Origin: Actinomycetota bacterium
GTDB taxonomy: Bacteria; Actinomycetota; Acidimicrobiia; Acidimicrobiales; CADCSY01
Assembly: GCA_004366205.1 (NCBI GenBank)
Contig: SIRW01000103.1
Coordinates: forward strand, 1 to 64,000
DNA length: 64,000 bases
Reading direction: 5' to 3'
Shown: positions 29,795 to 40,103 of the stretch, in pieces
Numbering within the stretch: the first letter of the stretch is position 1
How the letters are laid out: each line of letters starts with the position of its first letter
Program-made: the position numbers and the translations under genes
Notes under the pieces: generated by a model
Database searches by the model: none
Told to the model about the DNA's origin: nothing
The model's input: the letters and a program-made list of their open reading frames with translations, nothing else

Positions 29795-29886
29795 CCGGCG
29801 TGCGACGCTGGGGTATCCGGATGCGGCTCCCCCCGCCGGCCCGTGACCGGCTGCGGACCGCAGCACCAGGAGGACCAGGACAGCCC

Positions 29887-31026
29887 GTGCCCGTCTCGAT
29901 CGTGATCGCCGCCGGTGGCACCGGCGGGCACATCTACCCGGGCCTCGCCCTCGCCGAGGCCCTGCGCGCCACCGCACCGGGGTGCCGCATCACCTTCGTG
30001 GGCACGGCGCGCGGGCTGGAAGGCCGGCTCGTCCCCGAGGCGGGCCACACCCTGGAGCTGTACACGATGCTGCAGTTCAACAACCAGGGCTGGCGCAAGG
30101 TGCTGGTGCCCGCCGCGCTCGCCCGGGGGTCGCTGCAGGCGCGTGCCATCCTCAGGCAGGTCGGCGCCGACGTGGCGATCAGCATGGGCGGCTACAGCGG
30201 GGTGCCGCTGGTGCTCGGCGCCCGGCTCGCCCGGGTGCCCGTGGCCATCCACGAACCGGGCTCGGTGCCCGGCCAGGCCAACCGGCTCGCCGCCCGCTTC
30301 ACGCCGCACGTCGCCACGTCGTTCCCCGACACCGTGTTCCCGGGCCGCCAGGCCCGGTGCACCGGCTACCCGCTCCGGGGCGAGATCCTCCGCTTCGACC
30401 GGGCCGCCCTGCGCGCCGAGGCCCGGGCGGCGTACGGGCTCAGCGACGACCAGCGGATGATCCTCGTCACCGGCGGCAGCCAGGGGGCGCTGTCGCTGAA
30501 CCGCTTGGCCCTCGGGCTCGCCGAGCGCTGGGCGGGGGCGGGGCGCACCGACGTGCGCATCGTGCTCAAGCCCGGGTCGCGCACCCACGACGAGATCGCC
30601 GCCGCGCTCGCCGGCAACCCCGGGCGGGACCTCGTCGAGCTCGTCGGCTACATCGAGCGGATGGACCTGGCCTACGCGGCAGCCGACCTGGCCATCTGCC
30701 GAGCGGGCGCCGGCACCCTCGCCGAGCTCGCCGTCGTGGGCCTCCCGTCGATCCTCGTCCCCCTCCCCCACCACGAGCACGACGAGCAGGCCCACAACGC
30801 CGAGCCGCTCGTGCGCGCCGGCGGCGCCCTGATGGTGCGCGACCACGAGGCCACCGCCGACGTCGTGGGCCCGCTGATCGAGGAGCGCCTCGACGACCCG
30901 ACCCTGCTCGAGGCCATGCGGCGGGGCATGCACGCCAGCGCCCGGCCGCAGGCGGCAGCCGACCTCGCCGCCTGGCTGCTCGAGCTCGCCGGTGTCCGGA
31001 CGGCCGGACCGACCGTGGCAGGCTGA
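29887..31026 (+). CDS. murG: lipid II synthase GlcNAc transferase
   Basis: 379-residue GT28 glycosyltransferase adding GlcNAc to lipid I at the inner membrane face. The glycine-rich loop A-A-G-G-T-G-G-H-I-Y-P, membrane-side L-Q-F-N-N-Q-G, E-P-G-S-V-P-G-Q-A-N-R-L, G-G-S-Q-G-A and the donor-site R-A-G-A-G-T-L-A-E-L are all present. GTG 29887 was chosen since the fold begins there and AGGAGG lies upstream (13 nt, rather far); longer starts exist. It is the first gene of a plus-strand block that interrupts the minus-strand dcw cluster. Confidence 0.93.
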   Translation: MPVSIVIAAGGTGGHIYPGLALAEALRATAPGCRITFVGTARGLEGRLVPEAGHTLELYTMLQFNNQGWRKVLVPAALARGSLQARAILRQVGADVAISMGGYSGVPLVLGARLARVPVAIHEPGSVPGQANRLAARFTPHVATSFPDTVFPGRQARCTGYPLRGEILRFDRAALRAEARAAYGLSDDQRMILVTGGSQGALSLNRLALGLAERWAGAGRTDVRIVLKPGSRTHDEIAAALAGNPGRDLVELVGYIERMDLAYAAADLAICRAGAGTLAELAVVGLPSILVPLPHHEHDEQAHNAEPLVRAGGALMVRDHEATADVVGPLIEERLDDPTLLEAMRRGMHASARPQAAADLAAWLLELAGVRTAGPTVAG

Positions 31027-32083
31027 CGCCATCACCGAGCTGCGCACCCTCCTCGTCCATCCCGAGACGCCCCTGCGCGACGCCTTCGAGCGCATGCAGG
31101 CGGCGGGCCACGGCCTGCTCGTGATCGGCGACGACGAGGCCGGCCACGTGCTGGGCACGGTCACCGACAGCGGACTGCGCCGGGCGGCGCTCGCCCACCC
31201 CGCCCTCGACGCGCCCGTGCGCCTGGCCCGCACCCGCCAGCCCGTCCTCGCCGGACCCGGCGACGGCGACGCCGAGGTGCGCCGGCTGCTCGTCGAGCAC
31301 CGGCTGCGCGCCGTTGCCGTCGTCGACGGCGGGCGGCTCGTGGGCGTGCGCAGCCTCGACGAGTTCCCCGACGCCGCCCCGCCCGACCCGGTCGCCGTGG
31401 TGATGGTCGGGGGCCGGGGCGAGCGGCTGCGGCCGCTCACCGACAAGCTGCCCAAGCCCCTGCTCAAGATCGGCGGCCAGTCGATCGTCGAGCGCATCAT
31501 CCGCTCGCTCACCCGGGCCGGGGTGCACGACGTGTACCTCACGGTCAACTACATGGCCGAGGCCTTCGAGGAGGAGCTCGGCGACGGCGCGCGCATGGGC
31601 GTGCGCCTCCACTACGTGGTCGAGGACGAGCCCCTCGGGTCGGCGGGCGGGCTCTCGCTGCTGCCCGAGCGCCCGAAGGCGCCCCTGCTCGTCACCAACG
31701 GCGATCTGATCACCACCGTCGACTGGCGGGCCATGTTCGACTTCCACCGCCTGCACGCCGGCGCCATCACCATCGCCGGCGTCGAGCACCGCACCTACAT
31801 CCCCTACGGGGTGCTGCGCACGGCCGAGCACCACCTGCTCGCCATCGACGAGAAACCCGAGCGGATCGACTTCGTGAACGCCGGGATGTACGTGCTCGAG
31901 GCCGACCTGCTGCGCTTCGTCGAGCCCGGCGCGCCGCTGCTCATGACCGACCTCATCGCCGACGTCGTGGCCGACGGGCTGCCGGCGCACGTGTTCCCGG
32001 TGCTCGAGCGGTGGTTCGACATCGGCACCCCCGAGGAGTTCGAGAAGGTGCTGCTCTTGTTCGCGACCGGAGAGGAGGGCTGA
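30992..32083 (+). CDS. CBS-domain sugar-phosphate nucleotidyltransferase (PtmE-like)
   Basis: 363 residues. Residues ~14-125 form a CBS pair (P-E-T-P-L-R-D-A-F-E-R-M ... G-T-V-T-D; A-V-A-V-V-D-G). Residues ~131-355 are an NTP-transferase domain with V-M-V-G-G-R-G-E-R-L-R-P-L-T and L-P-K-P-L-L. This CBS+NTP_transferase layout is that of PtmE, the glucosamine-1-phosphate guanylyltransferase of Campylobacter legionaminate synthesis; the nucleotide and sugar here are inferred. GTG 30992 overlaps murG by 35 nt; no later start keeps the first CBS motif. legB follows 1 nt after its stop. Confidence 0.82.
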   Translation: MSGRPDRPWQADAITELRTLLVHPETPLRDAFERMQAAGHGLLVIGDDEAGHVLGTVTDSGLRRAALAHPALDAPVRLARTRQPVLAGPGDGDAEVRRLLVEHRLRAVAVVDGGRLVGVRSLDEFPDAAPPDPVAVVMVGGRGERLRPLTDKLPKPLLKIGGQSIVERIIRSLTRAGVHDVYLTVNYMAEAFEEELGDGARMGVRLHYVVEDEPLGSAGGLSLLPERPKAPLLVTNGDLITTVDWRAMFDFHRLHAGAITIAGVEHRTYIPYGVLRTAEHHLLAIDEKPERIDFVNAGMYVLEADLLRFVEPGAPLLMTDLIADVVADGLPAHVFPVLERWFDIGTPEEFEKVLLLFATGEEG

Positions 32084-32084
32084 C

Positions 32085-33086
32085 GTGACCGGAGCCGGCG
32101 ACCGGGACGGCTGGCGGGACTGGAGCGGCACGAAGGTGCTCGTCACCGGGGCCGGCGGCTTCATCGGCTCGACCCTGGTCGAGCACCTGCTCGGCGCGGG
32201 GGCCGACGTGCGGGCGTTCTGCCACTACCACCCCCAGGGCGCCGGCTGGCTCACGGGCCGGGACGACGTGGAGGTCGTGCTGGGCGACGTGCGGGACCAG
32301 AGCCGGCTGGTGCACGCCGCCGCCGGGCGCGACGTGGTCTTCCACCTCGCCGCCCTCATCGGCATCCCCTACAGCTACGAGGCCCCCGAGAGCTACGTGC
32401 AGACCAACGTCAACGGCACCTACAACGTGGCCAGCGCCTGCCTGCGCGCCGGCGCCCGGCTGGTGCACACGTCGACCAGCGAGGTGTACGGCACGGCGAT
32501 CACCGTTCCCATCGCCGAGGACCACCCGCTGCAGCCCCAGTCGCCGTACTCGGCGTCGAAGATCGGCGCCGACATGATGGCGCTGTCGTTCCACCACGCC
32601 TTCGACCTGCCCGTCACCGTGGTGCGCCCGTTCAACACCTACGGGCCCCGCCAGTCGGCCCGGGCGGTCATCCCCACGATCCTGTCCCAGCTTCACGCCG
32701 GGCAGCGACAGGTGAAGCTGGGCGCCACGACCCCGACGCGGGACTTCAACTACGTCGACGACACCGCCCGCGGGTTCATGGCCGTGGCCCGGTGCGAACA
32801 GGCGGTCGGCGACGTCGTCAACGTGGGCTCCGGTCGCGAGATCGCCATCGGCGACCTCGTCGAGCTGCTCGTCGAGATCACCGGCGCCGAGGCCGAGGTC
32901 GTCACCGACGAGGCCCGCATCCGGCCCGAGGCCAGCGAGGTCGAGCGCCTGCTCGCCGACAGCACCCGGGCTCGGGAATGGGCGGGCTGGGCACCCGAGG
33001 TCACCCTGGAGGAGGGGCTGGCCCGCACGTCGGCGTGGATCGCCGAGCACCTCCACCTGTTCGACGCCGGCACCTACGCCCGCTAG
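32085..33086 (+). CDS. NAD-dependent sugar-nucleotide 4,6-dehydratase, LegB-like
   Basis: 333-residue extended SDR. NAD loop T-G-A-G-G-F-I-G-S, the active-site context S-T-S-E-V-Y-G-T, and the Y-S-A-S-K tyrosine/lysine pair. Phrases such as L-A-A-L-I-G-I-P-Y-S-Y, R-P-F-N-T-Y-G-P-R-Q-S-A-R-A-V-I-P-T-I and P-T-R-D-F-N-Y-V-D-D-T match LegB (UDP/GDP-GlcNAc 4,6-dehydratase). The predicted product is a 4-keto-6-deoxy-GlcNAc nucleotide. GTG 32085 has a GAGGAGGG ribosome binding site. It is directly behind the nucleotidyltransferase; the remaining legionaminate genes are absent here. Confidence 0.85.
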   Translation: MTGAGDRDGWRDWSGTKVLVTGAGGFIGSTLVEHLLGAGADVRAFCHYHPQGAGWLTGRDDVEVVLGDVRDQSRLVHAAAGRDVVFHLAALIGIPYSYEAPESYVQTNVNGTYNVASACLRAGARLVHTSTSEVYGTAITVPIAEDHPLQPQSPYSASKIGADMMALSFHHAFDLPVTVVRPFNTYGPRQSARAVIPTILSQLHAGQRQVKLGATTPTRDFNYVDDTARGFMAVARCEQAVGDVVNVGSGREIAIGDLVELLVEITGAEAEVVTDEARIRPEASEVERLLADSTRAREWAGWAPEVTLEEGLARTSAWIAEHLHLFDAGTYAR

Positions 33087-33092
33087 TAGGGT
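33087..33092 (+). promoter_or_regulatory. -10 element for the selenoprotein gene
   Basis: TAGGGT begins 1 nt after the legB stop and has a 6-nt spacer (AAGGGC) before ATG 33099. It supports the choice of this ATG, and thus translation through the TGA. Confidence 0.5.
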
Positions 33093-33098
33093 AAGGGC

Positions 33099-33368
33099 AT
33101 GCTCGAACCCCGACACCGGCTCAGCATCGAGTTCTGCGTCCCCTGAGACTACGTGCCCCGGGCCGTCGGTCTGGCGGACGAGCTGCTCACAGGGTGGGCG
33201 CCGGTCATCGAGTCGCTCGAGCTGATCCCCGGCTCCCAGGGCCGCTTCGAGGTCGTCCTCGACGGCGAGCTGATCTTCTCCAAGGCCGGGCTCGGCCGCC
33301 ACGCCGAGCCCGGCGAGGTGGCCGGCATCGTCCGCGAGCGCATCGGCCCCGAGATCGAGCGCGACTGA
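33099..33368 (+). CDS. SelT/SelW/SelH (Rdx) family selenoprotein; in-frame TGA = Sec
   Basis: 89 residues if TGA 33144-33146 is read as selenocysteine. ATG 33099 opens L-S-I-E-F-C-V-P-U-D-Y, giving Cys13-x2-Sec16, the Rdx redox motif. Continuing in frame are P-R-A-V-G-L-A-D-E-L-L, I-P-G-S-Q-G-R-F-E-V-V-L-D-G-E-L-I-F-S-K and E-P-G-E-V-A-G-I-V, the full thioredoxin-like Rdx fold at normal family length. Neither half alone is a domain: the upstream part is 15 codons, and the next start (GTG 33153) would lose the first strand and the redox motif. A SECIS-like hairpin follows the TGA. Role: probable thiol-dependent redox protein. The Sec machinery is not in the window. Confidence 0.88.
33161..33184 (+). 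promoter_or_regulatory. candidate bacterial SECIS hairpin
   Basis: Stem GGC-CGTC (33161-33167) / GACG-(A bulge)-GCT (33177-33184, last pair G-U), apical loop GGTCTGGCG. The loop begins with GGUCU, as in the E. coli fdhF SECIS loop, and starts 22 nt after the TGA, inside the range known for bacterial SECIS elements. Confidence 0.6.
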
Positions 33369-33389
33369 GCCTGGGCCGCTGAGGCTCAG
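33365..33389. terminator. bidirectional terminator hairpin between selenoprotein gene and ftsW
   Basis: CTGAGCCT (33365-33372) and AGGCTCAG (33382-33389) are perfect 8-bp arms with a 9-nt loop. The hairpin includes the TGA of the plus-strand gene (33366-33368) and the complement of the ftsW stop (33386-33388), so it could terminate both convergent transcripts. No T tract. Confidence 0.5.
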
Positions 33390-34564
33390 GCCGGCGCCGG
33401 CGCCGGGCGCTGGGGCCGGCCCTGGCGAGCGACGCTGAGCAGCAGGCCGGTGGCCGCCATGAGCACGATGAGCGACGAGCCGCCGAAGGAGACGAAGGGC
33501 AGCGGCACGCCGGTGATGGGCAGGATGCCGACCACGGCGCCGATGTTCACGAACGCCTGGACGAGGACCCAGGTGGTGATGCCGGCGGCCAGGAGGGCTC
33601 CGAAGCGGTCGGGCGCCCGGATGGCGGCGCGCACGCCGAGGACGCCGAAGCCGGCGAACAGCCCGACGACGAGGAGCCCCCCGATCAGGCCGAGCTCCTC
33701 GCCGATGATGGCGAAGATGAAGTCGGTGTGGGCGTTGGGCAGGAACCCCCACTTGGCCCGGCTGGCGCCGAGGCCGACCCCACCGATGCCGCCGGACGCG
33801 ATGCCGACGAGCGACTGGATGGTCTGGTAGCCGGTGTTGGTGGGGTCGGCTTCGGGGTTCACGAAGGCGAGCAGGCGCGCCCGGCGGTACCCCTCGCTGA
33901 ACGCCAGGACGGTGGCGCCGGCCGAGGCGACCAGCGCCAGCACCCCCAGGCGGTGCAGCGGCGCCCCGGCCACGAACAGCACCGAGAACACGATGGCGCC
34001 GGTCACGAGCGTGGTGCCCATGTCGGGCTGGAGCATGAGCAGCGCACCCACGGCGCCGCCGACGAGCACCACCGGCCGCAGGGTCGCCCGGCTGTCGCGC
34101 ATGCGGGTGGCGCGCCGAGCCAGCAGGTCGGCGCAGAACAGCAGCAGAGCGAGCTTGGCGATCTCGGCGGGCTGGATGCGGAGCGTGCCCGCCCCGAGCC
34201 AGCGCGACGACCCGTTGACGGTGACGCCCACCTGGGGGACGAGCACGAGCGCCAGCAGGCCCAGCGACACCAGCAGGGCGGGGGTGGAGAACCGCCGCCA
34301 GACCCGGTAGTCGACCCGCAGGGTGACGGCGAGGGCGACGCCCCCGAGCGCCACCCACAGCAGCTGGCGGTGGAAGTAGGCCCAGCTGGAGCCGTGGTCG
34401 CGCACGCCCTGCACGGACGACGCCGACAGCACCATCACCAGCCCGATCAGGGTGAGCACGCCCACCAGGGCGAGCAGGAGCCAGTACGTCGCCGGCCGGC
34501 TGCCGTCGTCGGCGAGGCCACCGGTGCGGCGCGCGCGGGACCGGCGGTCGGCGGTGGCGGTCAC
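33386..34564 (-). CDS. ftsW: septal peptidoglycan glycosyltransferase FtsW
   Basis: 392-residue SEDS-family membrane protein with about ten hydrophobic helices. Family landmarks include N-G-S-S-R-W-L, I-Q-P-A-E-I-A-K-L-A-L-L, L-Q-P-D-M-G-T and F-I-F-A-I-I-G-E-E-L-G-L, ending V-P-L-P-F-V-S-F-G-G-S-S. It polymerises lipid II with FtsI. GTG (34562-34564) overlaps the murD stop as GTGA. Confidence 0.95.
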   Translation of the reverse strand: MTATADRRSRARRTGGLADDGSRPATYWLLLALVGVLTLIGLVMVLSASSVQGVRDHGSSWAYFHRQLLWVALGGVALAVTLRVDYRVWRRFSTPALLVSLGLLALVLVPQVGVTVNGSSRWLGAGTLRIQPAEIAKLALLLFCADLLARRATRMRDSRATLRPVVLVGGAVGALLMLQPDMGTTLVTGAIVFSVLFVAGAPLHRLGVLALVASAGATVLAFSEGYRRARLLAFVNPEADPTNTGYQTIQSLVGIASGGIGGVGLGASRAKWGFLPNAHTDFIFAIIGEELGLIGGLLVVGLFAGFGVLGVRAAIRAPDRFGALLAAGITTWVLVQAFVNIGAVVGILPITGVPLPFVSFGGSSLIVLMAATGLLLSVARQGRPQRPAPAPA

Positions 34565-35904
34565 GTCCCGGCCTCCGCCCGGGCCAGGTGGGCGCGCACG
34601 GCGCGGGCGAAGTCGTCGCCCCGCTCGGCGTAGCCGCCGTACCAGTCGAAGGAGGCGCAGCCGGGCGAGAGCAGCACCACGTCTCCGGGGCGGGCGGCGG
34701 CAGCGGCCGCGGCCACGGCCTCGTCCATCGAGGTGGCCGTCGTGACGGGCGCGACCGGCGCCAGGGCGGCCCGCACCTCGCCGGCGGCCTCGCCGATGGC
34801 CACGACGTGGCGCAGGCGCGCCGCCTCCCCGGCGAGCACGCCGAGGTCGAGGCCCTTGTTGCGGCCCCCGGCGATGAGCACGACGTGCTCGAAGCCCCGC
34901 ACGGCCGTGACGGCGGCGTGGGGGTCGGTCGCCTTCGAGTCGTCGTACCAGGCCACGCCACCAGCATCCTCGATCAGCTCCACGCGGTGGGGGAGCCCCC
35001 GGAACGCCCGCAGCGCGGCGCGGACGGGCTCGACGGCGGCGCCCGCCTCGAGGGCGCTGGCGGCGGCGGCGAGGGCGTTGGCGCGCTCGTGGGGCAGGTC
35101 GCGCCACAGGTCGTCGACGCCCGCGATGTCGCCCGCCGGCCCGACGAGCCGGTCGCCCTCCACGCGGTAGTCGCCCAAGGCCAGCCCGAACGTGACGACG
35201 CGGCCGCGGGCGCTGCTGGCGGCGGCCATGACGGCGGGGTCCTCGGCGTTGGCGATGGCGACGTCGCCGGCGTCCTGGGCGGCCCAGATGCGGGCTTTGG
35301 CGGCGGCGTAGGCCTCCATGCTCGGGTGCCAGTCGAGGTGGTCCTCGGCCAGGTTGAGCCACGTCGCCACGGCCGGCCGGAACGTCTCGGTGAGCTCGAG
35401 CCGGAACGACGACGCCTCGACCACGATGACGTCGTGGCCGGCGTCGATGACGTCGACCAGCGGCACGTCGTTGTTGCCGGCGGCCACTGTGCTGCGACCG
35501 GCGGCGGTGAGCATCTCGGTGACGAGGGTGGTGACGGTGGTCTTGCCGTTCGTGCCGGTGATGGCGACGATCGGCGGGTGGCCCCAGCGGGCCGCCAGCT
35601 CGAACTCGCTCCACAGCGGCACGCCCGCCCCGGTGGCGAGGCCGAACACCGGGTGGCGGGGCGGCACCGGGGGGCTGGGCACGACGAGGTCGACGCCCGC
35701 CACGACCGCGGCGAGGGCGTCGCGATCCGGCGCCTCGACGACCTCGACGCCGAGCCGGCCAGCGCGCTCGCGGACGGCTGGGCCGGGGTGATCCTCGACC
35801 ACCACGACGTCGATGCCGTGGCGGATGAGGGCGCGCGCCGCCGCCTCGCCGGCGACGCCCAGCCCGACCACGAGGGCCCGGCGGGCGTCCACACCGTCGG
35901 TCAC
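34561..35904 (-). CDS. murD: UDP-N-acetylmuramoylalanine--D-glutamate ligase
   Basis: 447 residues. N-terminal Rossmann part (V-V-G-L-G-V-A-G), ATP loop G-T-N-G-K-T-T-V-T, N-L-A-E-D-H-L-D-W-H and C-terminal Y-D-D-S-K-A-T-D-P, all MurD hallmarks, with L-L-S-P-G-C-A-S-F-D near the end. It adds D-glutamate to UDP-MurNAc-L-Ala. GTG overlaps the mraY stop (GTGA). Normal length. Confidence 0.95.
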   Translation of the reverse strand: MTDGVDARRALVVGLGVAGEAAARALIRHGIDVVVVEDHPGPAVRERAGRLGVEVVEAPDRDALAAVVAGVDLVVPSPPVPPRHPVFGLATGAGVPLWSEFELAARWGHPPIVAITGTNGKTTVTTLVTEMLTAAGRSTVAAGNNDVPLVDVIDAGHDVIVVEASSFRLELTETFRPAVATWLNLAEDHLDWHPSMEAYAAAKARIWAAQDAGDVAIANAEDPAVMAAASSARGRVVTFGLALGDYRVEGDRLVGPAGDIAGVDDLWRDLPHERANALAAAASALEAGAAVEPVRAALRAFRGLPHRVELIEDAGGVAWYDDSKATDPHAAVTAVRGFEHVVLIAGGRNKGLDLGVLAGEAARLRHVVAIGEAAGEVRAALAPVAPVTTATSMDEAVAAAAAAARPGDVVLLSPGCASFDWYGGYAERGDDFARAVRAHLARAEAGT

Positions 35905-36938
35905 CCGATCACCCCGGGGATCGAGAGGAAGTCGGCGTAGAACACCCCGAGGGCGATCGCCGTGCAGGCGCCCGCCAGGATCCAGAAGCGCACGATCACC
36001 GTGGTCTCGGGCCAGCCCAGCAGCTCGAAGTGGTGGTGGATCGGCGCCATGCGGAACACCCGCCGCTTGAAGAGCCTGTAGGCCCCGACCTGGATGATGA
36101 CCGACAGCGTCTCGATCACGAAGAGCCCGCCGAGGATCGGCAGGAGCAGGTGGGTGTCGGTCATGAGGGCGAGGGCGGCGAGGCCGGCGCCGATCGCCAG
36201 CGAGCCCGTGTCGCCCATGAAGATGCGCGCCGGGGCCGCGTTCCACCACAGGAAGCCGGCGCAGGCGCCGACCATGGCGGCCGACACCAGGGCGAGGTCG
36301 AGGGCGTAGGGCAGGTTGTAGACGGCCGGGTTGCGGAACGCCCAGAAGCACACGACCACGTACGCGGCGAAGCTGAACGTGGCCGACCCGGAGGCGAGCC
36401 CGTCGAGCCCGTCGGTCAGGTTCACGGCGTTGGTCGTGGCCATGAAGAGCAGCACGGCGAAGCCGACCCACAGCACCGGGCCCATGTCCCAGCCGATCGA
36501 GTCGTGGCGGGTGAAGGCCAGGTTGGTGGAGACCTGGGAGAACTCGAGCACGCCGAGGGAGAACCCGATGGCCACGAGGAGCAGGCCGAGGACCTTGGCC
36601 TTCTTGGTGAGCCCCAGGTTGCGGGCGCGGGTGACCTTGATCCAGTCGTCGATCAGGCCGACCGCGCCGGCGCCGATGACGGCCAGCACCGTGAAGATCC
36701 CGGCGTAGCTGAACACGGCGCCGGGCCGGAGGTGCCCGACCACGTAGCCCGCCGCCGTGCCCACCACGATGGCGACCCCGCCCATGGTGGGGGTGCCCGC
36801 CTTGGTGAAGTGGCCCTGGGATCCCTCCTCGCGGATCGGCTGGCCGATGCCGCGCAGCCGCAGCCAGGAGATGAGGAACGGGGTGAGCACCAGGGCGACG
36901 AGCATGCCGACGCCCCCGCTGACGAGGAGCGCTACCAC
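35901..36938 (-). CDS. mraY: phospho-N-acetylmuramoyl-pentapeptide transferase
   Basis: 345-residue polytopic membrane enzyme forming lipid I on undecaprenyl phosphate. Motifs: T-M-G-G-V-A-I near the N-terminus, L-I-D-D-W-I-K (catalytic aspartates), N-A-V-N-L-T-D-G-L-D-G-L-A, and M-G-D-T-G-S-L-A-I-G, with H-H-H-F-E-L-L-G-W late. GTG 36936-36938 overlaps the murE stop by 7 nt, leaving no room for murF, which normally lies between them. Confidence 0.96.
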   Translation of the reverse strand: MVALLVSGGVGMLVALVLTPFLISWLRLRGIGQPIREEGSQGHFTKAGTPTMGGVAIVVGTAAGYVVGHLRPGAVFSYAGIFTVLAVIGAGAVGLIDDWIKVTRARNLGLTKKAKVLGLLLVAIGFSLGVLEFSQVSTNLAFTRHDSIGWDMGPVLWVGFAVLLFMATTNAVNLTDGLDGLASGSATFSFAAYVVVCFWAFRNPAVYNLPYALDLALVSAAMVGACAGFLWWNAAPARIFMGDTGSLAIGAGLAALALMTDTHLLLPILGGLFVIETLSVIIQVGAYRLFKRRVFRMAPIHHHFELLGWPETTVIVRFWILAGACTAIALGVFYADFLSIPGVIG

Positions 36939-38356
36939 GCGCCCTCCCCGACCAGGCGCCGCAGCTCGGCGCGCACGACCTCACGATCGTCGAAGGGGAT
37001 CGTGCGGCCGGCGAGCTCCTGGGTGGTCTCGTGGCCCTTGCCGGCCACCACGACCACCCAGCCGGGACCCGCGGCCGCCAGGGCGGCGGCGATGGCGGCC
37101 CGCCGGTCGGGCTCGACGTCGAGGGCGGCGGGGCCGGTGGCGCCCGCCACCACCGAGGCGATGATGGCGTGCGGGTCCTCGCTGCGGGGGTTGTCGGACG
37201 TGACCGTGACCCGGTCGGCCAGCCGGCTCGCGACCGCGCCCATGGCCGGGCGCTTCTCCCGGTCGCGCTCGCCGCCGCAGCCGAACACGAGGTGCAGGCC
37301 GCCGCCGGACGTGGCCTCCCGCACGGCCCGCAGCAGCTGCTCGAGCCCGTCGGGGGTGTGGGCGTAGTCGACGACCACGGCGAAGGGCTGGCCCTCCTCC
37401 ACCAGCTCGAGCCGGCCGGGCACGCCCGGGGCGGTGGCCAGGCCGGCAGCCGCGGTGGCCGCGGGCACGCCCAGCTCGGCGGCGGCCGTCAGGGCGGCGA
37501 GGGCGTTGGCCACGTTGAAGCGCCCGCCGGCCGGCACCCGCACGCGCTGGCCGCGCCACGTGAACGTGCTCTCGGCGAGCCCGACCCGCAGGTCGGTGGC
37601 GTCCTCGAGCGAGTACCCGGTCGTCGGCACCCGGGCAGCGTCGCGCAGCAGCCGCCCGTGCGGATCATCGAGGTTGACGACGGCCCGCTCGGTCTGCTCG
37701 GGCTCGAAGAGCCGGGCCTTGGCCGCGAAGTACTCCTCCATCGTCCCGTGGTAGTCGAGGTGGTCGCGCGACAGGTTGGTGAACACCGCCACGTCGAAGC
37801 GGATGGCGTCGGTGCGGTGCTGGTCGAGGGCGTGCGACGACACCTCCATGGCGACGGCGTGGCCGCCGGCGTCGCGGTGGGCGGCCAGCCGGGCCTGCAG
37901 CTCGGGGCTGTCGGGGGTGTTGGGCGGTCCGGCCCCCGTGGCCGTGAGCGTGCCGATCACCGCCGTGCACCAGCCGTGCGCCTCGAGGATGGCGTGCACG
38001 AACCCGGCGGTCGTCGTCTTGCCGTTGGTGCCGGTGATGCCGACGATCCGCAGGTCCCGCGCCGGGTGCCCGTGCAGCGCGCTGGCGGCGCGGGCCATCT
38101 GCGGCCGCACGGCGGCGACCCGCACCTGCGGGACGTCGACGTCGACGAACCGTTCGACGAGCAGCGCGACCGCTCCGGCGGCCACGGCGGCGGCCGCGTG
38201 GTCGTGGCCGTCGCTGCGACTGCCGGGCACGCAGCAGAACAGCGCGCCCGCCGCCACCGCCCGCGAGTCGTGGGTCACCGCCCCGACGTCCACGCCGCTG
38301 ACGTCGCCCCGCACCTCGAGGACGTCGAGGTCGGGCAGGAGGTCGACGAGCAGCAC
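36932..38356 (-). CDS. murE: UDP-MurNAc-tripeptide ligase, meso-DAP-adding
   Basis: 474 residues. T-H-D-S-R-A-V-A-A-G-A-L-F near the start, ATP loop G-T-N-G-K-T-T-T, N-L-S-R-D-H-L-D-Y-H-G-T, and the C-terminal D-N-P-R motif (S-D-N-P-R-S-E-D-P) that selects meso-diaminopimelate rather than lysine. The organism therefore probably has A1gamma-type peptidoglycan. GTG 38354-38356 starts 1 nt after the ftsI stop. Confidence 0.95.
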   Translation of the reverse strand: MLLVDLLPDLDVLEVRGDVSGVDVGAVTHDSRAVAAGALFCCVPGSRSDGHDHAAAAVAAGAVALLVERFVDVDVPQVRVAAVRPQMARAASALHGHPARDLRIVGITGTNGKTTTAGFVHAILEAHGWCTAVIGTLTATGAGPPNTPDSPELQARLAAHRDAGGHAVAMEVSSHALDQHRTDAIRFDVAVFTNLSRDHLDYHGTMEEYFAAKARLFEPEQTERAVVNLDDPHGRLLRDAARVPTTGYSLEDATDLRVGLAESTFTWRGQRVRVPAGGRFNVANALAALTAAAELGVPAATAAAGLATAPGVPGRLELVEEGQPFAVVVDYAHTPDGLEQLLRAVREATSGGGLHLVFGCGGERDREKRPAMGAVASRLADRVTVTSDNPRSEDPHAIIASVVAGATGPAALDVEPDRRAAIAAALAAAGPGWVVVVAGKGHETTQELAGRTIPFDDREVVRAELRRLVGEGAW

Positions 38357-38357
38357 G

Positions 38358-40103
38358 TCAGTCCTGGATGGGCTGGGGAACGGGCTCGGTGAGCGTACCG
38401 GGCGGCGGCTCGGGCTCCTCGCCGACGACGGCGGCACCCGGCGGGATGCGCAGGTGGCGCAGGGCGTAGCGCGCCAGGTCGGCGAAGAGCGGTGCCGCCA
38501 CCACCCCGCCGTAGATCGGGTGGGGCTCGTCGAGGACCACGATCATCGACAGCTTCGGGTCATCCGCGGGCACGAACCCCGCGAACGACGCCATGTAGGC
38601 ACCGGGCTTGTAGCCCCGCACGCCGTCCAGCGGCTTGCGGGCCGTGCCCGTCTTCCCGGCGACCGGGTACCCCTCGATGCGGGCCCGGACGCCCGTGCCC
38701 TCCTCGACGGCCCGCACCAGCATGTCGGTCATCGCCACGGCGGTCGGTCCCGACACCACCGGCCGGGTCGCGGCAGGGCGCGCCTCGCGGTGGGTGCCGT
38801 CCGCGTCCACCGACGCCTTGACGAGCCGGGGCGCGACGTACACGCCGTCGTTGGCGATCACGTTGTAGGCGAGGAGCATCTGCAACGCCGTCACCGAGAC
38901 GCCCTGGCCGATCGGCAGCGAGCCGATCGACGTGCCGCTCCACCCGCCGGGCTCGAGCATGAGGCCGGCGGACTCGGCGGGGAAGCCGAGCGCCGTGCGC
39001 TCGCCGAACCCGAACCGCCGCAGGTAGGCGTCGAAGCGGTCGCGCCCCAGCTCCTGGGCGATCATGATCGTCCCCACGTTCGAGGACCGCGTGAGGATGT
39101 CCGACACCGACCAGCGCTCGGGCGGGTGGCGCTCGTGGTCGGAGAAGACGTGGGTCGACACGCGGAGGCGGTCGGGCACGACGAGCACGTCATCGGCGGT
39201 GAACAGGCCCTCTTCGATCGCCCCGGCGAGGGTGATGACCTTGTTCACCGAGCCGGGCTCGAACACGGTGGTGACCGCCATGTTGTCCCGGGTCGGCCGA
39301 GGCGTCGGATCGTCGCCGGCGCCCGCGCGCAGGCTGGCCATGGCGAGGATGTCGCCGCTGCGGGGGGCCATGAGCACGACCATGCCACCCTTGGCGCCGG
39401 TGGCGGCGATCTGCTCGGCGAGGAGCCGCTCGGCCTCGTACTGCAGCGAGCGGTCGAGGGTGAGCACGAGGTCAGCCCCCCGCTCCGCCGGGCGCAGGCG
39501 GTGCTCGCCCGAGGGGATCGTCATCCCGCCCAGCGCCCGCTCGACGACCAGCTCGCCGGGCACGCCGGCCAGCAGCTCGTCGTGGTGCAGCTCGAGGCCC
39601 GAGACCCCGATGTTGTCGAGGTCGACGGTGCCGAGCACGGCGGCGGCCAGATCCCCGGCCGGGCGGAAGCGTCGCGGCTCGGTGATCACGTTGATCCCGG
39701 CCAGCCCCAGGTCGCGCACCCGGGACGCCCGCTCGTCGTCGATCTGGCGGGCCAGGTAGACGAAGGCCCCGGTGCGGATGAGCCGCTCCCGGACGACCTC
39801 GGGGTCGAGGTCGAGGATCGGGCCCAGGGCCGCGGCGTAGGCCCGGGGGTCGGTCACGAGCCGGGGGTCGGCCCACACCGTGTGCTGCGGGACGGATAGG
39901 GCCAGCTCGTGGCCGTTGCGATCGAACAGGGCGCCCCGGTCGGCGGGCAGCGCGATCGACCGGACCCGCTGGGCGTGGCCGATCGAGGCGTAGTGGTCGG
40001 GTGCGACGACCTGGAGGTGCACGAGGCGCCCGGCCACGAGGCCGAAGGCGAGCAGGGCCGTGACGAGCACGGCGATGAGGCGCAGCCCCGTGCGCCGGGT
40101 CAC
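38358..40103 (-). CDS. ftsI: septal transpeptidase PBP3/FtsI
   Basis: 581-residue class B penicillin-binding protein. One N-terminal membrane helix (~8-26), a PBP dimerisation domain with R-G-A-L-F-D-R-N-G, and the transpeptidase with S285-V-N-K288, S340-S-N and K484-T-G-T. It cross-links septal peptidoglycan as FtsW's partner. No PASTA domains are present. The proline-rich C-terminus is short. GTG overlaps the ftsL stop (GTGA). Confidence 0.95.
   Translation of the reverse strand: MTRRTGLRLIAVLVTALLAFGLVAGRLVHLQVVAPDHYASIGHAQRVRSIALPADRGALFDRNGHELALSVPQHTVWADPRLVTDPRAYAAALGPILDLDPEVVRERLIRTGAFVYLARQIDDERASRVRDLGLAGINVITEPRRFRPAGDLAAAVLGTVDLDNIGVSGLELHHDELLAGVPGELVVERALGGMTIPSGEHRLRPAERGADLVLTLDRSLQYEAERLLAEQIAATGAKGGMVVLMAPRSGDILAMASLRAGAGDDPTPRPTRDNMAVTTVFEPGSVNKVITLAGAIEEGLFTADDVLVVPDRLRVSTHVFSDHERHPPERWSVSDILTRSSNVGTIMIAQELGRDRFDAYLRRFGFGERTALGFPAESAGLMLEPGGWSGTSIGSLPIGQGVSVTALQMLLAYNVIANDGVYVAPRLVKASVDADGTHREARPAATRPVVSGPTAVAMTDMLVRAVEEGTGVRARIEGYPVAGKTGTARKPLDGVRGYKPGAYMASFAGFVPADDPKLSMIVVLDEPHPIYGGVVAAPLFADLARYALRHLRIPPGAAVVGEEPEPPPGTLTEPVPQPIQD

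Follow-up and report, generated by a model that had tools for sequence, protein, structure and literature searches.

SelW-like selenoproteins with a CxxU motif have long been described and are abundant in bacteria. In the marine GOS data set they are the commonest selenoprotein family (PMC2398784). It has been suggested that the selenocysteine (Sec) form of SelW-like proteins is the original one (PMC1794560). For the bacterial SECIS (bSECIS) hairpin, a published model sets constraints on loop and spacing (PMC13188914). A large survey of bacterial selenium use (PMC5029168) makes no mention of Acidimicrobiia or SelW, and the literature combining 'Acidimicrobi' and 'selenocysteine' reports no SelW-like gene in titles or abstracts. 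Here we describe a locus within a 64,000-nt stretch of Actinomycetota DNA (the window), which, with near certainty, we predict to be a functional gene for a SelW-like (Rdx) selenoprotein. It shares with the described bacterial members the CxxU motif, the small single-domain Rdx architecture and the rare replacement of Sec by Cys in Sec-using lineages, and differs from them in nothing essential, being an actinomycetotal (Acidimicrobiia-related) member.

Reading frame, product and start codon

The frame running from ATG 33099 to the terminal TGA 33366-33368 contains a single internal stop, TGA 33144-33146. Translated with this codon as U, it reads MLEPRHRLSIEFCVPUDYVPRAVGLADELLTGWAPVIESLELIPGSQGRFEVVLDGELIFSKAGLGRHAEPGEVAGIVRERIGPEIERD. 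The initial annotation had proposed that reading the TGA as Sec places the motif Cys13-Val-Pro-Sec16 (CVPU, residues 13-16) at the redox position of the Rdx (SelT/SelW/SelH) family, with the rest of the fold continuing in frame. Profile searches bore this out: the 89-residue read-through protein of ~9.5 kDa matched Pfam Rdx (PF10262) over residues 7-79 with E=5.1e-17 and 62.3 bits (cut-off 22.6) and TIGR02174 (CXXU_selWTH) with 47.2 bits (cut-off 34.2), both matches spanning the UGA. Membership in the equivalog NF041051 (SelTWH_Campy) is not claimed, as the score of 76 bits lies under the curated cut-off of 88, which is no surprise because that model is named for Campylobacterota. An AlphaFold2 model built from a four-sequence alignment, with Cys substituted for Sec, had a pLDDT of 90 and placed the CxxU motif between the first strand (residues 6-13) and the first helix (residues 19-36). 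Its best PDB matches were the solved SelW-related bacterial structures 2fa8, 2obk, 3dex and 2p0g (TM-scores 0.80-0.85), and the sequence search agreed with the structure comparison in finding SelW-related bacterial proteins closest. By family analogy, the product would be a thiol/selenol oxidoreductase of thioredoxin-like fold. As had been anticipated for ordinary annotation, the standard code leaves a truncated gene, a 71-aa ORF from GTG 33153 with neither strand 1 nor the redox motif, and gene callers without a Sec model would yield this ORF.

The start codon is supported by the relatives L023, L024, L028, L057 and L058, which begin MLDP at the codon equivalent to ATG 33099; the start, the first strand and Cys13 lie upstream of the TGA, as originally assigned. 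The promoter hexamer noted before the ATG also recurs. TANNNT was found 6-7 nt upstream of 32 candidate starts (11 of form A and 21 of form B genes, the two hairpin types described below), whereas none of the other spacings between 0 and 24 nt accounted for more than 3. Some other relatives have Shine-Dalgarno-like sequences instead. Together, the hexamer 6 nt from the ATG and this recurrence make a leaderless mRNA likely for the window gene. Co-transcription with the upstream gene, which ends 12 nt before the ATG, is also possible. The occurrence of TANNNT before the start of many homologues is in itself a pointer to leaderless selenoprotein mRNAs.

The gene is flanked upstream by an epimerase/dehydratase gene and downstream by a convergent ftsW. 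Its neighbourhood gave no functional link, and the neighbours differ in L023. Window positions 29800-38437 hold a cell-wall gene cluster with a murG-like gene, a nucleotidyltransferase with CBS domain, the epimerase and then ftsW on the minus strand; ORFs resembling murD, mraY and murE by eye also belong to it.

Table 1. Window positions of the features assigned to the selW-like locus
Feature	Position	Strand	Remarks
TAGGGT, -10-like hexamer, probable leaderless promoter	33087..33092	+	6 nt upstream of ATG; spacing recurs in relatives
Predicted selW-like (Rdx) selenoprotein gene	33099..33368	+	89 codons plus terminal stop; predicted Sec at TGA 33144-33146
TGC, Cys13 codon in the CxxU motif	33135..33137	+	Cys invariant in the alignment of both form A and form B
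UGA codon, predicted to be read as Sec16	33144..33146	+	TGA aligned in all 53 distinct Sec-type genes; Cys in L071, L078, L100
Alternative hairpin CCGGGC(CGUCG)GUCUGG	33158..33174	+	mutually exclusive with form A; at form B position; not conserved in closest relatives
Putative bSECIS apical hairpin, form A, CCGUC(GGUCU)GGCGG	33163..33177	+	arms 33163-33167 / 33173-33177; loop GGUCU 33168-33172; 21 nt after UGA

Homologues and selenocysteine machinery

An Rdx homologue was present in 155 of 395 genomes of the same class, nearly every listed match carrying an in-frame TGA. Among the 53 distinct TGA genes inspected at nucleotide level, this codon always fell exactly at residue 16. Follow-up of the weak cases left three Rdx matches without TGA: one is in G004, one in G379, where it is a second, weak match, and one is a fragment at a contig end in G152. 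In Sec-type relatives, among them Acidimicrobiia bacterium L023 (80% identity) and the Acidimicrobiaceae MAG L024 (67%), the frame is kept on both sides of the TGA and runs on beyond it; the possibility, raised by the initial annotation, that homologous frames end at this codon was not seen. L023 and L024 are also the relatives from which the class of the window was deduced. The Rdx match across the stop, together with homologues that preserve the frame before and after the conserved TGA, confirms that this frame is real far beyond chance. Phylum-wide, the homologue occurred in 46/297 genomes, with both Sec and Cys types represented. The suggested search for Cys or Sec at residue 16 turned up Cys in the two Cys-type homologues read at phylum level, L071 and L078 (the latter, from a large-genome actinomycete, has CxxC with Cys replacing Sec), and in L100. 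Judged by alignment, the in-frame UGA is conserved and Cys stands where UGA is absent, the pattern that marks a selenoprotein gene.

Strong selA matches were tallied in 143/155 Rdx-positive compared to about 113/240 Rdx-negative genomes of the class (Fisher p=3e-22, genome relatedness not being corrected for). G004, the only Rdx-positive genome at least 95% complete without a selA match, has CxxC with Cys at residue 16. Another 11 Rdx-positive genomes had no strong selA match; since these assemblies are all 63-90% complete, missing sequence is the likely reason. With the gene in 155 genomes and selA over the cut-off in 256/395, Sec use extends widely across the sampled Acidimicrobiia-related genomes, and SelW-like proteins are a common product. 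Very small genomes of the same class (0.6-1.1 Mb; family f35, genus g89, e.g. L085-L087, L089-L091) mostly keep a Sec-type selW-like gene together with selA.

The search recommended for selA, selB, selC and selD located all four in the assembly that contains the window (3.44 Mb, 100% complete), which rules out absence of selB and tRNA-Sec. tRNA-Sec scored 70 bits (gathering score 47) and was also reported by ARAGORN as tRNA-SeC, SelB (280 bits) adjoins SelA (401 bits) on contig C49, and SelD scored 328 bits and has Cys in its N-terminal motif. Further selenoprotein genes in this genome were sought through one FdhA family search, which revealed a second probable selenoprotein outside the window, a formate-dehydrogenase-type alpha subunit (FdhA; L079:1501-2400, contig C39) with one in-frame UGA, at L079:1921 (context NQARI-U-HSATVPGL). 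The UGA is followed by the hairpin GGUCCCC(GGUCU)GGGGACC, the loop of which is identical to the form A loop of the window gene.

Hairpins downstream of the UGA and rival readings

Form A, with its 5-bp stem, the loop GGUCU and the distance of 21 nt from the UGA, fits the loop and spacing constraints of the published bSECIS model (PMC13188914). It was found in 24 distinct genes as CCGUC(GGUCU or AGUUU)GRCGG, always 21 nt after the UGA and with 5/5 pairs formed in 24/24. One pair varies (U-A/U-G) and compensatory changes do not occur, so that support for the stem lies in its frozen sequence. The codons are correspondingly uniform, A22 being GCC and V23 GTC in 24/24 genes, G24 GGT in 23/23 and L25 CTG in 23/24, whereas at other conserved four- and six-codon residues the commonest codon has a share of 0.32-0.74, i.e. 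there is synonymous variation. In the Cys homologue L071 the codons are changed and the hairpin is lost, with 3/5 pairs left. The predicted energy was -6.8 kcal/mol for the hairpin alone, -7.9 with two flanking pairs and between -8.3 and -11.5 when its formation was imposed on longer stretches, the bSECIS criterion being -7.5 kcal/mol or lower.

Orthologues in other genomes of the class showed a different placement. Form B, CCGCGC(CGUGA)GCGCGG, occurred in 27 genes 17 nt after the UGA, 4 nt nearer than form A. Its stem is supported by covariation: three pairs show 11 double changes in total, a number reached in 0/500 shuffles, and 94% of cells were paired compared to 15-67% on sliding by 1-3 columns. 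Form B-type orthologues (L031-L055, L064, L073, L076) have the loops CGUGA, CGUGG or CGUGC, with compensatory changes. The idea that the loop type is fixed by the SelB of the genome was rejected: not only the window's genome but also 14 form B genomes carry FdhA with a GGUCU loop, and the loop type therefore follows the gene, not the genome.

Three other readings of the locus were weighed. The UGA could be a true stop or a sequencing error, leaving a broken or Cys-type Rdx gene and a shorter protein, and the restart ORF that ordinary gene callers would report does exist. However, its product would be missing strand 1 as well as the redox motif, the segment upstream of the TGA is conserved as protein and the hairpin downstream of it at codon level, and independent genomes carry the stop at the identical codon as TGA rather than TAA or TAG. 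We consider this reading, against which the homologues are in effect decisive, to be practically negligible. Hardly more probable, and still very improbable, is read-through of the UGA as Trp or Cys by a near-cognate tRNA. The complete Sec machinery in the genome, the strong selA association across the class, the bSECIS-type hairpin and the Cys found in homologues without TGA all argue for the predicted Sec instead.

That the gene encodes a selenoprotein but presents SelB with the alternative 6-7 bp hairpin CCGGGCC(GUC)GGUCUGG instead of form A deserves more weight, though it appears unlikely. Free folding of the window sequence alone favours this structure over form A as the minimum-energy hairpin, and it sits where other genomes of the class have the conserved form B hairpin. 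However, all 6/6 pairs can form in only 2/24 form A genes, L026 (the window itself) and L074, the others reaching 3-5/6, compared to complete formation of form A throughout. Because of this difference, form A is the better-supported putative SelB signal.

Proposed mechanism and comparison with known systems

Based on these data, we propose that transcription from the -10 element would start at or beside the ATG and yield a leaderless mRNA, as the motif suggests. When the ribosome reaches the UGA at codon 16, SelB carrying Sec-tRNA-Sec would bind the form A hairpin CCGUC-GGUCU-GGCGG and Sec would be inserted, all parts required for this step having been found; Sec-tRNA-Sec would be made by SelA, with selenophosphate provided by SelD. 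From sequence and structure model, we predict a small, thioredoxin-like product whose Cys13-x-x-Sec16 motif sits between first strand and first helix. As inferred from its family, this protein may act as a thiol/selenol oxidoreductase via a Cys-Sec selenenylsulfide. A more tentative proposal, to which we give somewhat less than even credence, is that orthologous selW-like genes use two SelB-signal placements, form A at 21 nt and form B at 17 nt, that one SelB serves both loops, that the window gene, whose sequence allows either hairpin, may represent the point of switching, and that the UGA is recoded at codon 16 of a probably leaderless mRNA without a Shine-Dalgarno leader. The two placements among orthologues offer a natural comparison for SelB requirements.

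Among characterized structures, SAV_2001 of Streptomyces avermitilis (PDB 3dex) shares fold and family with the predicted product at 39-40% identity and a TM-score of 0.80-0.85. Mouse selenoprotein W (PDB 2npb) belongs to the same Rdx family and has the same fold but is distant, with 21% identity. Eukaryotic SECIS elements are located in the 3' untranslated region; unlike that of mouse selenoprotein W, the putative SECIS of the window gene closely follows the UGA, within the coding sequence. In this it resembles the bSECIS of Escherichia coli fdhF, likewise a coding-region hairpin after the UGA with the same GGUCU loop, although the gene and the stem sequence are different. Altogether, the window gene adds a member to a known family.
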